DNA from: Cytophagales bacterium
GTDB lineage: Bacteria; Bacteroidota; Bacteroidia; Cytophagales; CCMP332
Length of the DNA: 35,507 nt
Assembly (NCBI GenBank): GCA_028279065.1
Contig: JANQSY010000116.1
Coordinates: 1-35,507, forward strand
Reading direction: 5' to 3'
The notes under the pieces are model-generated. The model did no database searches and was not told the DNA's origin. It saw nothing but the letters and a program-made list of their open reading frames with translations. Both the position numbers and the translations under genes were made by a program. The stretch's first letter is position 1; each line of letters opens with the position of its first letter. Shown here piece after piece: positions 9,389-15,807 of this stretch.

Positions 9389-9419
9389 CAAAAAGACAAT
9401 TCTCATTTCACTATTCAAT
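9389..9419 (-). promoter_or_regulatory. Candidate promoter of the response-regulator gene
   Basis: Reading on the minus strand: ATTG (9419-9416), 19 bases, then TCTTTTTG (9396-9389). This fits the Bacteroidota -33/-7 pattern TTTG-N19/21-TAnnTTTG with one mismatch in each element. The operator palindrome ends in the ATTG. The ATG follows 17 bases after the -7 element. Inference from pattern only. Confidence 0.55.
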
Positions 9420-9434
9420 ACCCCAAACGGGGTA
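9419..9434. promoter_or_regulatory. Palindromic candidate operator TACCCC-N4-GGGGTA, copy 1
   Basis: TACCCCAAACGGGGTA has perfect 6-base arms and a 4-base spacer. It is centred about 55 bases upstream of the response-regulator ATG and abuts the candidate -33 element, a position suited to an activator. A near-identical element lies at 15792-15807 in the same relation to another promoter. A dyad of this size suits a dimeric NarL-type regulator, and the neighbouring one is the natural candidate. Confidence 0.7.
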
Positions 9435-9436
9435 AA

Positions 9437-12394
9437 CTAAGTTTTTATCAGGATCTTGGTTCCATTATCAGGAGAGCTCTCAATTCTCAGTTTCCCTCCC
9501 AACTTTTCAATTCTATTACGGATATTTTTCAGGCCAAACTTCTGAGGGCTAGCCCCCTCTTTCTTTGGGTCAAAGCCTTTTCCATCATCACATACCTGGA
9601 TCTCAAGAGAATTTGTCCCATGCGAATGGATCCTAAAAGAGGCATTATCAGCTTTTGAGTGCTTCAATATGTTTTGAGTTATTTCCTTGATGATCTGCTT
9701 TAAGTTGAAAGCAATATTGGGTCCCACCTTTCCCTTTCCCTTGATGTCATCCTCAAACTCCAGTTTAAGCCTGGAGTACTGGGTCAATTTTTGGATATCA
9801 TGTTTCAGTTCGGCAAAAAACTCCTCATGACTTACCGATCCCTTATTCAGTGTCCAAATGGTATCCCTTAGATTGGAAATACTCTCTTCCGCATCACCCT
9901 TCAGAGATTCAAGCAAGTGGAGGGCTTTTTCATCTTTTTTTAAAGAGTCAATCCTTTCTGTCAACTTGATCCCTGAGATTATTGAGGTAAGCTGTGCTCC
10001 TACATGGTCATGAAGATTGCTGGAGATTCTTTCCCTCTCATCTTGGATCCTTTGCTTAAGTTCCAGTTCTCTCAGCTTTCGCTTAAGATTTATCCTTGAA
10101 AAATATCTCACAATTAGTGTTACGAAAACCAATAAACAAAAGCCAGCCGCGATCAAAAACAAAGTTGAACGGTACCAGGGAGGAAGAACCACAAAAGGGA
10201 TCTGGACGATCCGGGATTCAATTCCTAGTGTGTTCTTCGATTGGGCTTCCAATTCATAGTTTCCTTCAAAAAGACCCTGATAAGTTATCGCGGACTGGAA
10301 CGACCACTCCGACCACTCCTCGTCAAATCCCTTTAGTCTATATCTGTATTGATTTTGGGTCTCGTTTTCAAAACTGAGGCATGCAAACTCAGCCTTGATG
10401 CTGTTTTTTGGATAGTTTACCTCAGGAGGGTTCTTGGATATGCTTCCCCAAACAGGACTCCAATTCTTTACGAAGATCGTGTCACGAATCTGCAATGATC
10501 GCAGGATCATTTCTGGCATGTTTTGATCTGTCGGTGCTTTTGGGTCATAACCGATCAGGCCATCCGTTGTTCCTAGAAAGATTTTTCCAAACTCATTTTC
10601 AACGCCCATCCAAATTCCACTTGAGACGAACCCTTTCAATTCAGGAAGATCAAGATACTTATACCCTTTATCCCATTGATAAGCTTTAAGGCTCATGAAG
10701 GGGGTATTTCCATAAAAAAGATAGATTATCGGATCCAGGTAACTTTGAAAAATGTAGGGTACCATCAAGGTATCATACAAAAAATCAGGATGTCTTTGAA
10801 AGCGATTCCCATCGAATCGATATACACCCTCAAGACTGGAAAACAAAAGACCATTTCTGGTTCGATTGATCTTTATCTCGCTGGTTGGAAGGCCATTCTC
10901 CTCCATGTATTTATTCAACCTGATCCTATTTCCCCATTTTATCCTATAAAGTGGGTTTTGAGTCGAGCCCAACCACAGAGTGCCATCCTCCTCTTCTTCG
11001 ATGAATCTTACAAATTCTCCTACCAGATCGTTGTGGTTTTGGAAATCATGAACCTTACCATCTGAAAACCTGAAGGACTTCAATCCTTTCGTGGAGCATA
11101 TATAGATCTTACCTTCAAATACTCTGGACCTGAAGATCTTATAAGCATAATCTGGAAAGAGCTTTTCCAGGTCTTTTTTCAGAAAGGAGTACCTGAAGAT
11201 TCCTTTGGTTGAGGCGATCAGCATATCTTCACCAAGGTCCAAAAGTTTGAATGCTTCGAAGTTGGGGTCAAGAAGTGGCTTGAAATTTTCTTCCCCATTA
11301 TGGAAATAAACACCCTCATGGGTACTGACGAAAACATGATCATCCTTGATCAGGATATCATTGACTATACCAGGTAATCCTTTTCTGTCGTCAAAAAACC
11401 GAAAGGGTTGTTGGAATCTGAGTTTGGAGATCCCTCTATCCGTTGAGACCCATAGATTTCCTTCCATGTCTTCAAAACAAAAGTGAACCCTTCTACTTAC
11501 CAGGCCTTCCTCTTCCCCAATGGTCTGCAGTAGTTGACCGTTTTTATCGATGATGTAAAGCCCTATATCTGTACCCACCACGATCTTGCCGTCTGAAACG
11601 GGATAAATAGTATTAACATAATCCTTTTCAAAGACCACCTGAATCTCTTTGTCTATCCGAGTGGTTTCAACGCCGTCATCAAGGTAAAGACTCATTTGTG
11701 TCATTAGTATCAAATCATTCCCTGACCTTTCTGAAGAGGTCAACCGCTCATCCTTAGAAAGGACTATTCTTTTGGGCAGTTCGATCTGGTTTTCATCATC
11801 AAGGTTTAGCAAATCTTTGGAATCCCTAAGGGAGCATACCACTCTGTCCTGCCATAGGAACATCGATAGGAAATTATCTTCCGACCTTATGGATTTGAAC
11901 TCCTTGGAATTTTCATCCCAAATCAGGATCAAAGAGTTTGAAAAGAAATAAACCTTGTTTTTAAGGGCTATTTGGCCTCGAAAAAATGGAAGTATACCGA
12001 GGTCCTTTGGCAGGAATTCTTTCAGCGAGTTGAACTTAAAGTTTTCCTTATAGTCTCTGGTGATCAAGCCCAGGTCGCCTGCACCCGAGTTGTAGATATT
12101 CCCACTTTGAGAGATCCCCACCCTGCGGATCATACCCTTCGTAGAATTCGGAATAGTCAGCCAGGTGGTACCATCATAGATGATGAGTCCATTTCCATTC
12201 CCAAAGTACATTCTTCCTTCATGATCCTGGGTTATTCCCCATACCTGAGAATGAGCCTTATAGTCTTTTGGATGATAATTCTGGATCTCAGGAAGGCCAA
12301 AAAAGAACAGATCGGTCTTTTCTTGCCCTATGCAATAGGCAAAGGCCGAACCCAGGATCAGGGCGAGGGTAGCTATAGCTCGGTAGAAGCCCAT
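9437..12394 (-). CDS. Sensor histidine kinase with periplasmic beta-propeller (Reg_prop) and Y_Y_Y domain
   Basis: A 985-residue membrane sensor. A signal sequence (about 1-23) is followed by many propeller repeats, for example V-W-G-I-T-Q-D-H-E-G-R-M-Y-F-G and G-N-L-W-V-S-T-D-R-G-I-S-K-L. Next come a Y_Y_Y domain (Y-R-Y-R-L-K-G-F-D-E-E-W-S), one membrane helix (about 740-762), a HisKA_3 dimerisation domain with E-R-E-R-I-S-S-N-L-H-D-H (phospho-His about 795), and a HATPase domain. The HATPase shows Asn about 908 in I-T-Q-N-I-L-K-H-S, D-D-G-K-G-F-D and F-G-L-K-N-I-R-N-R. It lacks a fused receiver or DNA-binding domain, so it is a classical kinase acting on the adjacent regulator, not a hybrid. 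The ligand is unknown. A terminator separates it from the upstream propeller operon. Confidence 0.95.
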   Translation of the reverse strand: MGFYRAIATLALILGSAFAYCIGQEKTDLFFFGLPEIQNYHPKDYKAHSQVWGITQDHEGRMYFGNGNGLIIYDGTTWLTIPNSTKGMIRRVGISQSGNIYNSGAGDLGLITRDYKENFKFNSLKEFLPKDLGILPFFRGQIALKNKVYFFSNSLILIWDENSKEFKSIRSEDNFLSMFLWQDRVVCSLRDSKDLLNLDDENQIELPKRIVLSKDERLTSSERSGNDLILMTQMSLYLDDGVETTRIDKEIQVVFEKDYVNTIYPVSDGKIVVGTDIGLYIIDKNGQLLQTIGEEEGLVSRRVHFCFEDMEGNLWVSTDRGISKLRFQQPFRFFDDRKGLPGIVNDILIKDDHVFVSTHEGVYFHNGEENFKPLLDPNFEAFKLLDLGEDMLIASTKGIFRYSFLKKDLEKLFPDYAYKIFRSRVFEGKIYICSTKGLKSFRFSDGKVHDFQNHNDLVGEFVRFIEEEEDGTLWLGSTQNPLYRIKWGNRIRLNKYMEENGLPTSEIKINRTRNGLLFSSLEGVYRFDGNRFQRHPDFLYDTLMVPYIFQSYLDPIIYLFYGNTPFMSLKAYQWDKGYKYLDLPELKGFVSSGIWMGVENEFGKIFLGTTDGLIGYDPKAPTDQNMPEMILRSLQIRDTIFVKNWSPVWGSISKNPPEVNYPKNSIKAEFACLSFENETQNQYRYRLKGFDEEWSEWSFQSAITYQGLFEGNYELEAQSKNTLGIESRIVQIPFVVLPPWYRSTLFLIAAGFCLLVFVTLIVRYFSRINLKRKLRELELKQRIQDERERISSNLHDHVGAQLTSIISGIKLTERIDSLKKDEKALHLLESLKGDAEESISNLRDTIWTLNKGSVSHEEFFAELKHDIQKLTQYSRLKLEFEDDIKGKGKVGPNIAFNLKQIIKEITQNILKHSKADNASFRIHSHGTNSLEIQVCDDGKGFDPKKEGASPQKFGLKNIRNRIEKLGGKLRIESSPDNGTKILIKT

Positions 12395-12433
12395 TCAGAT
12401 CTAGAATCAATTTGGAGTTTTTTTTCATAAAAG

Positions 12434-12462
12434 AAAAGGCCCCGCAAAATGCAAGACCTTTT
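12434..12462. terminator. Rho-independent terminator, probably bidirectional
   Basis: On the minus strand AAAAGGTCTTGCA-TTT-TGCGGGGCCTTTT forms a 13-pair stem with three G-U pairs and a 3-base loop, followed by further T-rich sequence. It lies 42 bases after the stop of the PQQ-propeller gene and 40 bases before the kinase start. It would end the three-gene exported operon before the kinase gene. On the plus strand it is also followed by T residues. Confidence 0.75.
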
Positions 12463-12503
12463 TCCGACTAATTGCTATATGAAAAGGCAATCTACCAAAG
12501 CGG

Positions 12504-14156
12504 TTAATGCGTTGCCAGCTTGGAAATAGTCTTTTTCTCGTATACAAATCCATGTTCACCATCCTTTGATAGCATGGTACTGGCGCCTTTTTTAGCATTG
12601 TATCGAGTGTGACTACAGGTCTCTAAATCAAATGCCGCCACATCAGCATTTTCAGCACGCAATAGTATTGTCCTTCCTACAAGTCCTTTGTATTCGGCCT
12701 TCTTGAACTTACTGGAAGCCATAAGGGAACCATCGGACGTCTTGTGCTTTGCCACACCCTTCTCGCCAACGACTATGATGTCCCCATTGTAATCAAGGAT
12801 CTCAGCTGCCAGACCGATACCATCATCTTTCAAAGGGATCTCGTAATTATCCTTGCCAGAAACAAGGTCCAGATTATAAAGGGCCTTGCCGCTGCAAACC
12901 ATTAGGTTTTTATCCTCCACAAGGATATTGGTTATACCCTTCTTAAATTTTTCAGAATCGTAGACCAGACTGCCATCTTTGGTATCGAAGGCCTGTACAC
13001 CGTAGGGTTTCACATTTGGATACCATAGACGCCATTCTCTTGTAATAGTGTAGGTCCCATCGGTATTTCTTTCTTTTTTTTCAATATATGCCTGGGCTTC
13101 AACAGTTCCTCCTTGCTGGATCACCACCCTTCCATTGGCTACATACATATGGGGAATAGCCTTTGCTTCCTTTATTTCTGGGCTCGTCCAAAGCAGCTTT
13201 CCTGAATTAAGATCATACTTCTGGATCTTTTGCTTTTTGGCATTTTCAAAATTTACTATGTAAAGGTCATTGCCTGCGATCACCGGACCGGAAACTGCTC
13301 CATAGACACCAAATTTCTTCGCTCCTTGTGGGGGTTTGATCACATTTACTGTATAGTCATAAGCAGCGGACCACAGATTGCTTCCGGAGGCATAATCATA
13401 AACCTGAAGGCCATTGAGGAACAGATAGACCTTACCATCTCTGACATCGATATCTATGAGAGATTCCTTGGTCCAGACCTTTTTCTCAGCGACTCCCATG
13501 TACGAGTTCTCCCATAGAATATCACCTGTCTTCATGTCGATCCGGGTGATCTGATTCTTGAATCCTGCAAACAATGCCGATAGGAATTTCGGCTTGTAAT
13601 TCACCAAAACAACCGAACCATCATCCATGGCTACATACTCACCCACCGAGCCCTTGAATCTTGAAGTCGCCCATAGCTCCTCTCCCGATCTGGCCTCGAC
13701 CATGACGAATTGATCCTTGAGCGAGATCGCAAAGGCATGCATTTCCGGAATGTAGATCATATTATCCTCTCCTACTTCCTGGTATTTATCGGTGTTCCAA
13801 AGGAGTTCTCCTGACAAGGCATCCACGCAAGCTATCTGGTCCTTACCCAACTTCCTGTCAAAAAGAAAAAGGGTCCTTGCCTTCCATAGTGGAATAAGTT
13901 CGTCCACTTTTCTAAGTTTCGGGGCCATATCCTTGTACTTGGCTGTCCAAAGGACCTTACCGTCCTTATTGCTTAAAACGGTGATCTGCTTATCGGATGC
14001 TCCGAAACAGTACTCCTCTCCGAAGTCATCAAGACCTCGGAAAAGATCACTCTGATGGTCGAGCTTGGCCGTCCAGACCGTTTTCATATCCTCCTGGCCG
14101 ATTGCGGTATGTGCCAGAAAAAGGACTGTTGCGAATAGGTAAATCAACTTTTTCAT
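12504..14156 (-). CDS. Exported PQQ-like (BamB-type) beta-propeller protein
   Basis: A 550-residue protein with a signal peptide (M-K-K-L-I-Y-L-F-A-T-V-L-F-L-A-H-T-A-I-G-Q, cleavage about 20) and repeated blades of the PQQ/quinoprotein type: G-K-V-L-W-T-A-K-Y, G-E-L-L-W-N-T-D-K-Y, G-D-I-L-W-E-N-S-Y and G-K-L-L-W-T-S-P-E. No membrane anchor or lipobox is seen. It is last in a three-gene operon of exported proteins, starting 17 bases after the 120-residue protein. No dehydrogenase active-site features were recognised, so a binding or scaffold role is more likely than PQQ enzyme activity. Function unknown. Confidence 0.9.
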   Translation of the reverse strand: MKKLIYLFATVLFLAHTAIGQEDMKTVWTAKLDHQSDLFRGLDDFGEEYCFGASDKQITVLSNKDGKVLWTAKYKDMAPKLRKVDELIPLWKARTLFLFDRKLGKDQIACVDALSGELLWNTDKYQEVGEDNMIYIPEMHAFAISLKDQFVMVEARSGEELWATSRFKGSVGEYVAMDDGSVVLVNYKPKFLSALFAGFKNQITRIDMKTGDILWENSYMGVAEKKVWTKESLIDIDVRDGKVYLFLNGLQVYDYASGSNLWSAAYDYTVNVIKPPQGAKKFGVYGAVSGPVIAGNDLYIVNFENAKKQKIQKYDLNSGKLLWTSPEIKEAKAIPHMYVANGRVVIQQGGTVEAQAYIEKKERNTDGTYTITREWRLWYPNVKPYGVQAFDTKDGSLVYDSEKFKKGITNILVEDKNLMVCSGKALYNLDLVSGKDNYEIPLKDDGIGLAAEILDYNGDIIVVGEKGVAKHKTSDGSLMASSKFKKAEYKGLVGRTILLRAENADVAAFDLETCSHTRYNAKKGASTMLSKDGEHGFVYEKKTISKLATH

Positions 14157-14173
14157 AACTCTACATTTTGGTT

Positions 14174-14536
14174 TTAATCAATGTTTATCTTGTATCTGAT
14201 CTTCTCTGATTTATACTTGGGGACCTTGAAGGTTTTGTATTTGAAATTCCTGAGAGCGTATTGGAGATAGCGGTTGTAATCCACATTCAAGCCTTCTTTA
14301 CGAATGGTGAAAATGGTCTGCAACTCTCCCTTGTCCCCCACAGTTATATCATACTCGTACTCACCTGTGATCCCATATTTTTCTACCGTTTTGGCCAATT
14401 TTCCATCGACAAAACTTTGATCCAGTTCCTTGGTTACAGCGGTCATTATTTCCTCATTTGTGGTAAGGAGTGGCTTCTTTTGAGCATAGCTTAGAGTTGT
14501 AGTAAAAATCAAAAAACATAATGCTAAATATCTCAT
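14174..14536 (-). CDS. Small exported protein of unknown function
   Basis: A 120-residue protein with a clear signal peptide (M-R-Y-L-A-L-C-F-L-I-F-T-T-T-L-S-Y-A-Q) and a mature domain of about 100 residues rich in Lys and Tyr. It ends N-F-K-Y-K-T-F-K-V-P-K-Y-K-S-E-K-I-R-Y-K-I-N-I-D. I do not recognise the family. The ATG at 14536 is preferred to the TTG two codons upstream because it starts the signal peptide directly. It sits between two propeller genes, 6 bases after the first and 17 before the next, so it is almost certainly co-transcribed with them. Confidence 0.85.
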   Translation of the reverse strand: MRYLALCFLIFTTTLSYAQKKPLLTTNEEIMTAVTKELDQSFVDGKLAKTVEKYGITGEYEYDITVGDKGELQTIFTIRKEGLNVDYNRYLQYALRNFKYKTFKVPKYKSEKIRYKINID

Positions 14537-14542
14537 TATCAA

Positions 14543-15730
14543 TTATTTAAAATTCCAATATCCTAATTGATTTCCATAGGCCATGATCAGGGTTTCCCCA
14601 TCGGGCAAAAACACCAGTGAAGACCGGTTAAGAGTTGCGGCTTCACCGAACCTCAGATCCATACTGTAGGAATAGAGATTCCTGCCTGATTCATAATCAT
14701 GAACATTGATGACCATTGGAGCAGGTACTTTTCCTGTATTGATGGTGACCACTCCCATGTACTTGTTACCGTAATCGGTTTTGAAATCGGGGTTTTCCAT
14801 CAGGGATGGAAAAATGGTCCTGGTTACCTCTCCAGTCTCCGCTATTACCTTTTGGATATACCCCTGCCTGGTGGCTCCGGCTCCTGCTGCTGAGGTTTGG
14901 ACTTTGGTGTGGGGAAGAGAGTATACATACAGGTATTTCTTATCCCTGCTGTATTCCAGGTGATAGATAATATCAAAGATGTCATCAGCAGAGTAAATCC
15001 TTTTGCCCGAGGCCAGATCGTAAAATGAGACCATATGATTGTATTTGAGGGCGTTTTTTTGGGCTTTTTTGTCATTTCTGATCCGCGGTATTTTCCCAAG
15101 ATCCTCCTTGGTAGGCTGATGGGTGACGGCTATTAGTTTATTCCTGGGATCTACTTCAACAGAGTAGCCCACGACATCAAGCTGTATGCTTTTGTTTATG
15201 GCATCTATATCCACCTCTTCTTCCTCTCCCAGCCCCTGTCCGCCTTGGATATCGAAGAAGTATACCTTATCAAATTTTAGGATCACCAGATATTTGCCAT
15301 CGGGTGTCCAGCAGGCATCCTGAACTTTTTCGCTTCTGAAGACGATCTGCTCAGCGTCTACATTGATGACCTCCGTTCTTACCGGCCTATCCTTGTTTGG
15401 TGCCCAATCGGCGAAGTGTCGTTTTTGAAGTTTTATGAAGCGGTCATCCTTGGGATTGTATTCAAGTGTTGGGCCTGCATAATATCCAGGCAACTTTATC
15501 TCCTTGATCAGTTCTTCCTTGGCACAATCCCATAAATACAAGGGCCCCTGCCCCGTTCCAATAGCCATGGTATTGCTATCCCTGGCCATGACCATTTCAG
15601 AGATCCCCCACATCCTGTTGCCCGGGATCGGGACTTTCCTGATGTTGATCGACTGTGTTTGAGAGAAGGACTCAGCCTGGACTAAAACCAGTAGAACACA
15701 AGTAATTGATCTGAATAGATAGAAGTTCAT
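14543..15730 (-). CDS. Exported WD40-like beta-propeller protein, first gene of operon
   Basis: A 395-residue protein with a signal peptide (cleavage about residue 23, S-F-S-Q). The repeats resemble WD40/lactonase-type propellers: A-I-G-T-G-Q-G-P-L-Y-L-W-D-C-A, A-C-W-T-P-D-G-K-Y-L-V-I-L, and V-F-L-P-D-G-E-T-L-I-M-A-Y-G-N-Q-L-G-Y-W near the C-terminus. No enzymatic motif is recognised. It heads the operon with the 120-residue protein and the PQQ-like propeller. Its upstream region carries the second copy of the CCCC-N4-GGGG palindrome and a matching promoter, linking it to the adjacent two-component system. Confidence 0.88.
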   Translation of the reverse strand: MNFYLFRSITCVLLVLVQAESFSQTQSINIRKVPIPGNRMWGISEMVMARDSNTMAIGTGQGPLYLWDCAKEELIKEIKLPGYYAGPTLEYNPKDDRFIKLQKRHFADWAPNKDRPVRTEVINVDAEQIVFRSEKVQDACWTPDGKYLVILKFDKVYFFDIQGGQGLGEEEEVDIDAINKSIQLDVVGYSVEVDPRNKLIAVTHQPTKEDLGKIPRIRNDKKAQKNALKYNHMVSFYDLASGKRIYSADDIFDIIYHLEYSRDKKYLYVYSLPHTKVQTSAAGAGATRQGYIQKVIAETGEVTRTIFPSLMENPDFKTDYGNKYMGVVTINTGKVPAPMVINVHDYESGRNLYSYSMDLRFGEAATLNRSSLVFLPDGETLIMAYGNQLGYWNFK

Positions 15731-15760
15731 GGTTTGGTAGATTTCAGTTCAATTCCAAAC

Positions 15761-15792
15761 CAAAACTGAGAGCAGAGCTGCTCTAGGGCAAT
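15761..15792 (-). promoter_or_regulatory. Candidate promoter of the exported propeller operon
   Basis: On the minus strand: ATTG (15792-15789), 20 bases, then CAGTTTTG (15768-15761). This fits TTTG-N19/21-TAnnTTTG with one mismatch per element. The layout copies the response-regulator promoter: operator directly abutting ATTG, and the -7 element a short distance before the ATG (30 bases here). Confidence 0.55.
15769..15784. promoter_or_regulatory. Dyad AGAGCAG-AG-CTGCTCT inside the promoter spacer
   Basis: A perfect 7-base inverted repeat with a 2-base centre that fills 16 of the 20 bases between the candidate -33 and -7 elements. It may be a binding site for a second regulator, or chance. 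The response-regulator promoter lacks it. Confidence 0.4.
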
Positions 15793-15807
15793 CCCCCAGA
15801 TGGGGTA
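15792..15807. promoter_or_regulatory. Palindromic candidate operator, copy 2
   Basis: Minus strand TACCCCATCTGGGGGA matches copy 1 (TACCCCGTTTGGGGTA) in both C4/G4 arms and the 4-base spacing, with one outer position differing. It is centred about 70 bases upstream of the first propeller ATG. It abuts the candidate -33 element exactly as copy 1 does, and begins 15 bases past the end of the upstream DUF2461 gene. Confidence 0.65.

Follow-up and report, generated by a model that had tools for sequence, protein, structure and literature searches.

The DNA-binding domain of Escherichia coli NarL co-crystallises as a dimer with an engineered ‘7-2-7’ site used in binding assays, 5'-TACCCCTAAAGGGGTA-3', and 7-2-7 sites are found at -40/-49 (napF) and -38/-47 (yeaR), both of them activated by NarL (PMC4549865). 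Sensors with a Reg_prop propeller are the second point of comparison. They include the hybrid two-component systems of Bacteroides, and combine periplasmic Reg_prop blades, a Y_Y_Y domain, one transmembrane helix and a kinase core. Propeller sensors are common in Bacteroidota, and their targets are mostly unknown. Promoters of these bacteria have a -33 element, TTTG (PMC7366714), and a -7 box that occupies positions -12 to -5 (PMC9723704). In a literature search that covered few subscription journals, nothing combined Bacteroidetes, NarL and 7-2-7.

Here, we describe a propeller two-component system from a Cytophagales bacterium in which sensor and regulator are encoded by separate genes, and for which a predicted operator, promoter geometry and target list can now be given. 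It lies in a stretch of DNA of 35,507 nucleotides, all of which we call ‘the window’. The system is of a known kind. Its regulon appears to be new, and the sequences support a NarL operator that has been built, unchanged, into Bacteroidota promoters.

Components of the system

The response regulator combines a REC domain (PF00072, E 3e-16) that has the phospho-acceptor aspartate with a C-terminal GerE/LuxR-type helix-turn-helix (PF00196, E 4e-17), the composition of the NarL/FixJ group. Residues D61, T89 and K111 are present, and the match to E. coli NarL (1a04) takes in almost the full protein (E 2.4e-20). The transmembrane helix of the kinase was read from the sequence, and this protein ends after HATPase_c. 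It resembles the Reg_prop sensors of Bacteroides in its blades, Y_Y_Y domain, single helix and kinase core, but the output here is a separate GerE (NarL-type) regulator rather than a fused AraC-type domain, and polysaccharide-utilisation genes are not found nearby. The departure from the E. coli NarXL system is of another sort: the sensor is a Reg_prop/Y_Y_Y kinase and not NarX or NarQ, and the predicted targets are exported propeller-type and type IX secretion (T9SS) proteins instead of genes for nitrate respiration. Among the targets found there were neither nitrate-respiration nor polysaccharide-utilisation genes.

The exported operon contains three genes (Table 1). The product of the first, judged by the look of its repeats, is probably a WD40-like propeller. 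A terminator lies between the operon and the kinase gene, and the latter is without an operator of the kind described below; because the operon ends in this terminator, the kinase gene probably has a promoter of its own, free of this operator.

In the model that we favour, the kinase would sense a periplasmic signal and phosphorylate the NarL-type regulator encoded alongside it. A dimer of the regulator would then bind TACCCC-N4-GGGGTA, a 7-2-7 inverted repeat that has its centre near -43 and is fused to the -33 element, and would activate three transcription units, each from a promoter of the phylum's primary sigma factor. The first is the regulator gene, where a promoter internal to the kinase–regulator pair would create positive feedback; the second is the exported propeller operon; and the third is a gene for a T9SS-exported, propeller-like protein located elsewhere in the genome. 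We consider it likely that the regulator activates its own gene, the operon and this relocated T9SS gene in the class II manner.

Table 1. Features of the system, by position in the window unless a contig is named
Feature	Position	Strand	Remarks
NarL-type response regulator (REC + GerE), 222 aa	8703..9371	(-)	Proposed binder and autoregulated target
Sensor kinase, 985 aa	9437..12394	(-)	Exported Reg_prop/Y_Y_Y sensor part, HisKA_3, HATPase_c
Operon gene 1, exported 395-aa protein	14543..15730	(-)	No Pfam model above cut-off
Operon gene 2, exported 122-aa protein	14174..14542	(-)	No family; likely ATG start 14536
Operon gene 3, exported 550-aa PQQ-type beta-propeller	12504..14156	(-)	
Operon intrinsic terminator	12434..12462	(-)	Stem kept in congener with changed sequence
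Operon 3' UTR segment	12463..12503	(-)	Kept in congener; contains TTTGGTAGAT (12490-12499)
Leader element ATCTACCAAA	15733..15742	(-)	Directly 5' of the operon's first ATG
Related leader element ATCTAACAAA	9371..9380	(-)	Overlaps regulator ATG; one base off
Regulator-gene module TACCCCGTTTGGGGTATTG	9434..9416	(-)	Then 19 bases, TCTTTTTG (9396..9389), 17 bases, ATG 9371
Operon module TACCCCATCTGGGGGATTG	15807..15789	(-)	Then 20 bases, CAGTTTTG (15768..15761), 30 bases, ATG 15730
Regulator-gene operator	9419..9434	(-)	Perfect palindrome TACCCC-GTTT-GGGGTA; NarL 7-2-7 geometry
-33-like ATTG, regulator promoter	9416..9419	(-)	A common to ATTG and palindrome end
-7-like box TCTTTTTG, regulator promoter	9389..9396	(-)	19 bases 3' of ATTG
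Propeller-operon operator	15792..15807	(-)	TACCCC-ATCT-GGGGGA, one base short of a perfect palindrome
-33-like ATTG, operon promoter	15789..15792	(-)	
-7-like box CAGTTTTG, operon promoter	15761..15768	(-)	20 bases 3' of ATTG
Third operator copy	G000:C145:23274-23292		Perfect palindrome, ATTG-N20-CATTATTG; ATG 64 bases after ATTG

Operator and promoter geometry

The original prediction described two matching operator–promoter modules, one before the regulator gene and one before the operon, and stated that the window holds no further full copy of the palindrome. Re-read on the minus strand for order, spacing and sequence, the modules proved correct base for base, and a search for TACCCCN4GGGGTA at zero or one mismatch found these two places and no others in the window. 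With up to three mismatches allowed, the window contains nine sites against 10.9 expected from shuffles, and since this count is no different from that of the shuffles, the signal lies in the exactness of the palindrome. The operator of the regulator gene sits between the stop codon of the kinase and the start codon of the regulator, and the regulator gene probably has an additional promoter under its own control.

The twelve specified bases of the window palindrome, TACCCC-N4-GGGGTA, are those of the E. coli site TACCCCTAAAGGGGTA (PMC4549865). The palindrome thus has inverted TAC heptamers, two bases apart, in the high-affinity form of the 7-2-7 sequence. The geometry of the inverted repeat is that of the E. 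coli NarL operators (the engineered narG -89/-89 site, napF and yeaR), and the centre is near -43, as at yeaR and napF; the promoter here, in contrast, has the -33/-7 form of Bacteroidota, and its -33 element is fused to the operator. The 7-2-7 site, known from Proteobacteria, is thereby indicated to be in unchanged use in Bacteroidota, joined to the -33 element of that phylum. In NarL, K188 and K192 are the recognition-helix positions that contact bases. In RcsB, the base-contacting positions are K180 and S184 (PMC5829831). The window regulator has K194 and K198 at these places, and is the only GerE protein of the genome with lysine at both presumed contact positions (0 of the 5 others).

Counted from a -7 box at -12 to -5, the palindromes are centred at -42.5 (regulator gene) and -43.5 (operon and third gene). 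These values fall within the class II arrangement, which we took to mean that the operator has its centre near -41 to -45 and that a -7 box, TANNTTTG, follows it at a fixed distance: the offsets in the window are 19 and 20 bases, the start sites are predicted ones, and the -7 box of each window promoter is one base off TANNTTTG. The fixed distance between operator and -7 box favours activation over repression. Repression of the regulator gene and the operon by an operator that covers the edge of the -33 element is the reverse of this reading. Autorepression is common among regulators, and because the operator overlaps ATTG, a dimer sitting on it could keep RNA polymerase out. The operator-to--7 distance, however, is held at 19-21 bases across the order, a constancy required by an activator but not by a repressor; the imperfect -7 boxes in the window also speak against repression, and at napF and yeaR sites in this position serve NarL for activation (PMC4549865). 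We judge repression improbable.

It is scarcely credible that the palindrome is not a site for a protein but a repeat element, or a hairpin or terminator that acts in the transcript. The copy before the regulator gene does fold as a 6-bp RNA hairpin, but it is without a run of Ts and was passed over in the terminator prediction, no such fold forms in the operon copy, and the genome has only three copies. Lying upstream of the -7 boxes at a fixed distance, the palindrome would not be transcribed from them.

The predicted regulon in genome, genus and order

The whole genome (3,588,544 bases in 191 contigs) contains three matches to TACCCCN4GGGGNATTG, where 0.015 are expected from base composition and the reversed control pattern has none. 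All three lie on the coding strand, 44-64 bases 5' of a start codon. Sites with two mismatches are about as common genome-wide as those of the reversed control and were left out of the counts. The original prediction was to fail if the palindrome were scattered through the genome; instead, there are three copies only, and each is close to a promoter. The gene behind the third copy encodes a protein of 432 aa that has a T9SS tail and weakly matches a sortilin-like propeller. In the congener, the orthologous gene is an extra one, of 439 aa, within the propeller operon, and so the T9SS gene, which has its own operator on another contig here, is served there by the operator of the operon. Because the ortholog sits in the congener's operon, operator control of the T9SS gene has been kept, whichever arrangement is the older. 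Nothing but the motif led to this gene, which hence is an independent test; it is the strongest single point in favour of the regulon.

Comparison within the genus involved two genomes, that of the window and the congener G002. The regulators are 76% identical and their recognition helices are the same; the kinases are 50% identical, and the first operon proteins 71%. Both window sites are kept in place in the congener, as the comparison of promoters called for by the original prediction revealed. The congener's regulator gene has the operator TACCTCCATTGGGGTA, in a site, TACCTCCATTGGGGTATTG, that again separates the kinase stop from the regulator start; its operon has the operator TACCCCAATTGGGGGA, in a module, TACCCCAATTGGGGGATTG-N20-GACATTTG, whose -7 spacing is that of the window. 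The palindrome-ATTG block is nearly unchanged, and most of the flanking promoter DNA aligns poorly, a short block 5' of the operon ATG excepted. At the congener's regulator promoter, no clear -7 box stands where the spacing would place it. Further afield, no exact site occurs in the family-level relative G001, which is without the operon protein and without any clear ortholog of the kinase, and among 148 genomes of the order the kinase of the congener alone is clearly orthologous. Orthologs of protein P0005, sought in GTDB contigs, gave a single match (JANQHS010000393.1); a structure predicted for P0005 from a two-row alignment had a mean pLDDT of 42 and was discarded. The congener has a candidate further target: a site, TACCCTATCTGGGGTATTC-N20-AAGTTTTG (L116:738-756, plus strand), lies 43 bases 5' of the gene for a 248-aa lipoprotein. 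Palindromes of the form TACCCA-N4-TGGGTA, followed by TTG, occur in the three genomes of the family (L117:8990-9005, L134:4340-4355 and L009:1501-1519), and may serve a different NarL-type regulator as its operator.

Were the window palindrome bound by a different NarL-type regulator, alone or with its neighbour, the regulon would not be private to this system. A paralogous pair (C190, L067:1477-3164, minus strand) offers an example: the L067 regulator is a close relative (E 1.3e-39) beside a second Y_Y_Y-type (Reg_prop) kinase, and its recognition helix, TIRTHIKN, resembles the TVKTHIKN of the window regulator. Yet the sites flank the window regulator and the operon, positions that they retain in the congener, no such palindrome occurs within 3 kb around L067, and the pair of lysines at the contact positions is peculiar to the window regulator and missing from L067. 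We regard binding by another regulator as unlikely, and the gene product encoded beside the operators as the better candidate.

The module recurs across the order, before genes for LytTR regulators, lipoproteins and exported proteins. A search of 390 genomes with the pattern gave about 33 matches, as against five for the reversed control, and the order-wide form (L075-L097) is TACCCC-N4-GGGGTATTG-N20/21-TANNTTTG. Counting as a -7 box any match of at least 5/6 at an offset of 19-21, we found one at 16 of the 19 intergenic sites outside the genus, in each case at 20 or 21; shuffles gave a mean of 0.45 and a maximum of four. A NarL-type (GerE) regulator is encoded within 9 kb of 11 of 18 intergenic loci, where 1.23 are expected from the density of such regulators in those genomes (P 2e-9), or, counted by genus, of 7/10 against 1.15 expected (P 9e-6). 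Control sites located in coding sequence had neither (0/6 with a -7 box, 0/6 with a NarL-type regulator nearby). The neighbouring regulators are usually accompanied by a HisKA_3 kinase, and one locus (L105) repeats the arrangement of the window, its site being placed after the kinase stop and before the regulator start. They are not orthologs of the window regulator, and the recognition helix at L105 is different. Palindrome, ATTG fusion and spacing are alike in the order and in the window, whereas the kinases are of other types (7TMR-DISM at L106), and the targets include stand-alone LytTR genes and lipoproteins. This association with regulators and -7 boxes, the identity with the NarL site, and a third target whose ortholog is in the congener's operon together support the predicted regulon. 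With operator and geometry defined, NarL-type regulons of the phylum become searchable by sequence.

Modules at 1501-1519 of loci L079, L083, L085, L086, L092 and L095 lie 5' of short, stand-alone LytTR genes (93-116 aa). These six loci belong to another family of the order and mostly adjoin a NarL-type regulator and kinase. Despite these six sites, it is very improbable that the motif is that of a LytTR-type protein or of some other factor common in the order, with NarL-type neighbours a coincidence: all six loci hold a NarL-type regulator too, further loci have the regulator without the LytTR, and the motif is in sequence a NarL site. As binder, LytTR was rejected, there being no match to such a protein in the window genome or the congener at E 0.001. 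With a NarL-type regulator at each of the six loci and no such LytTR in the window genus, the six genes look instead like targets, and a cascade from regulator to LytTR is possible there. Clusters of two or three module copies surround a 7TMR-DISM kinase/NarL-type regulator pair at L106 (8216, 9940 and 18450) and L108 (7949 and 10206), where they precede families of lipoproteins in what may be a driver role.

Complementarity in the operon 3' UTR

The element TTTGGTAGAT in the 3' UTR of the operon is the exact complement, in both genomes, of the leader element ATCTACCAAA; the set of complementary coordinates also includes L135:8229-8238 (minus strand). From this, the conserved, terminator-ended 3' UTR might be imagined as a feedback RNA that pairs with the starts of operon gene 1 and the T9SS gene and dampens the output of the regulon, but we think this doubtful. 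A second DNA element, common to the leaders of the regulon, could be the plainer explanation. The complementarity was noticed after the fact, in two genomes, and is to be weighed accordingly. An Rfam search gave no match. A ranking of RNA duplexes that tolerated loops did not discriminate and was replaced by a ranking of contiguous helices. By this measure, when the 41-base segment was compared with 360 gene starts sampled from the window genome, the regulator gene was unremarkable (rank 233), the first gene of the operon ranked fourth (11 nt, kept in the congener), and the T9SS gene ranked first, with 13 nt over the start codon. The operon of the congener ranked first of 44.
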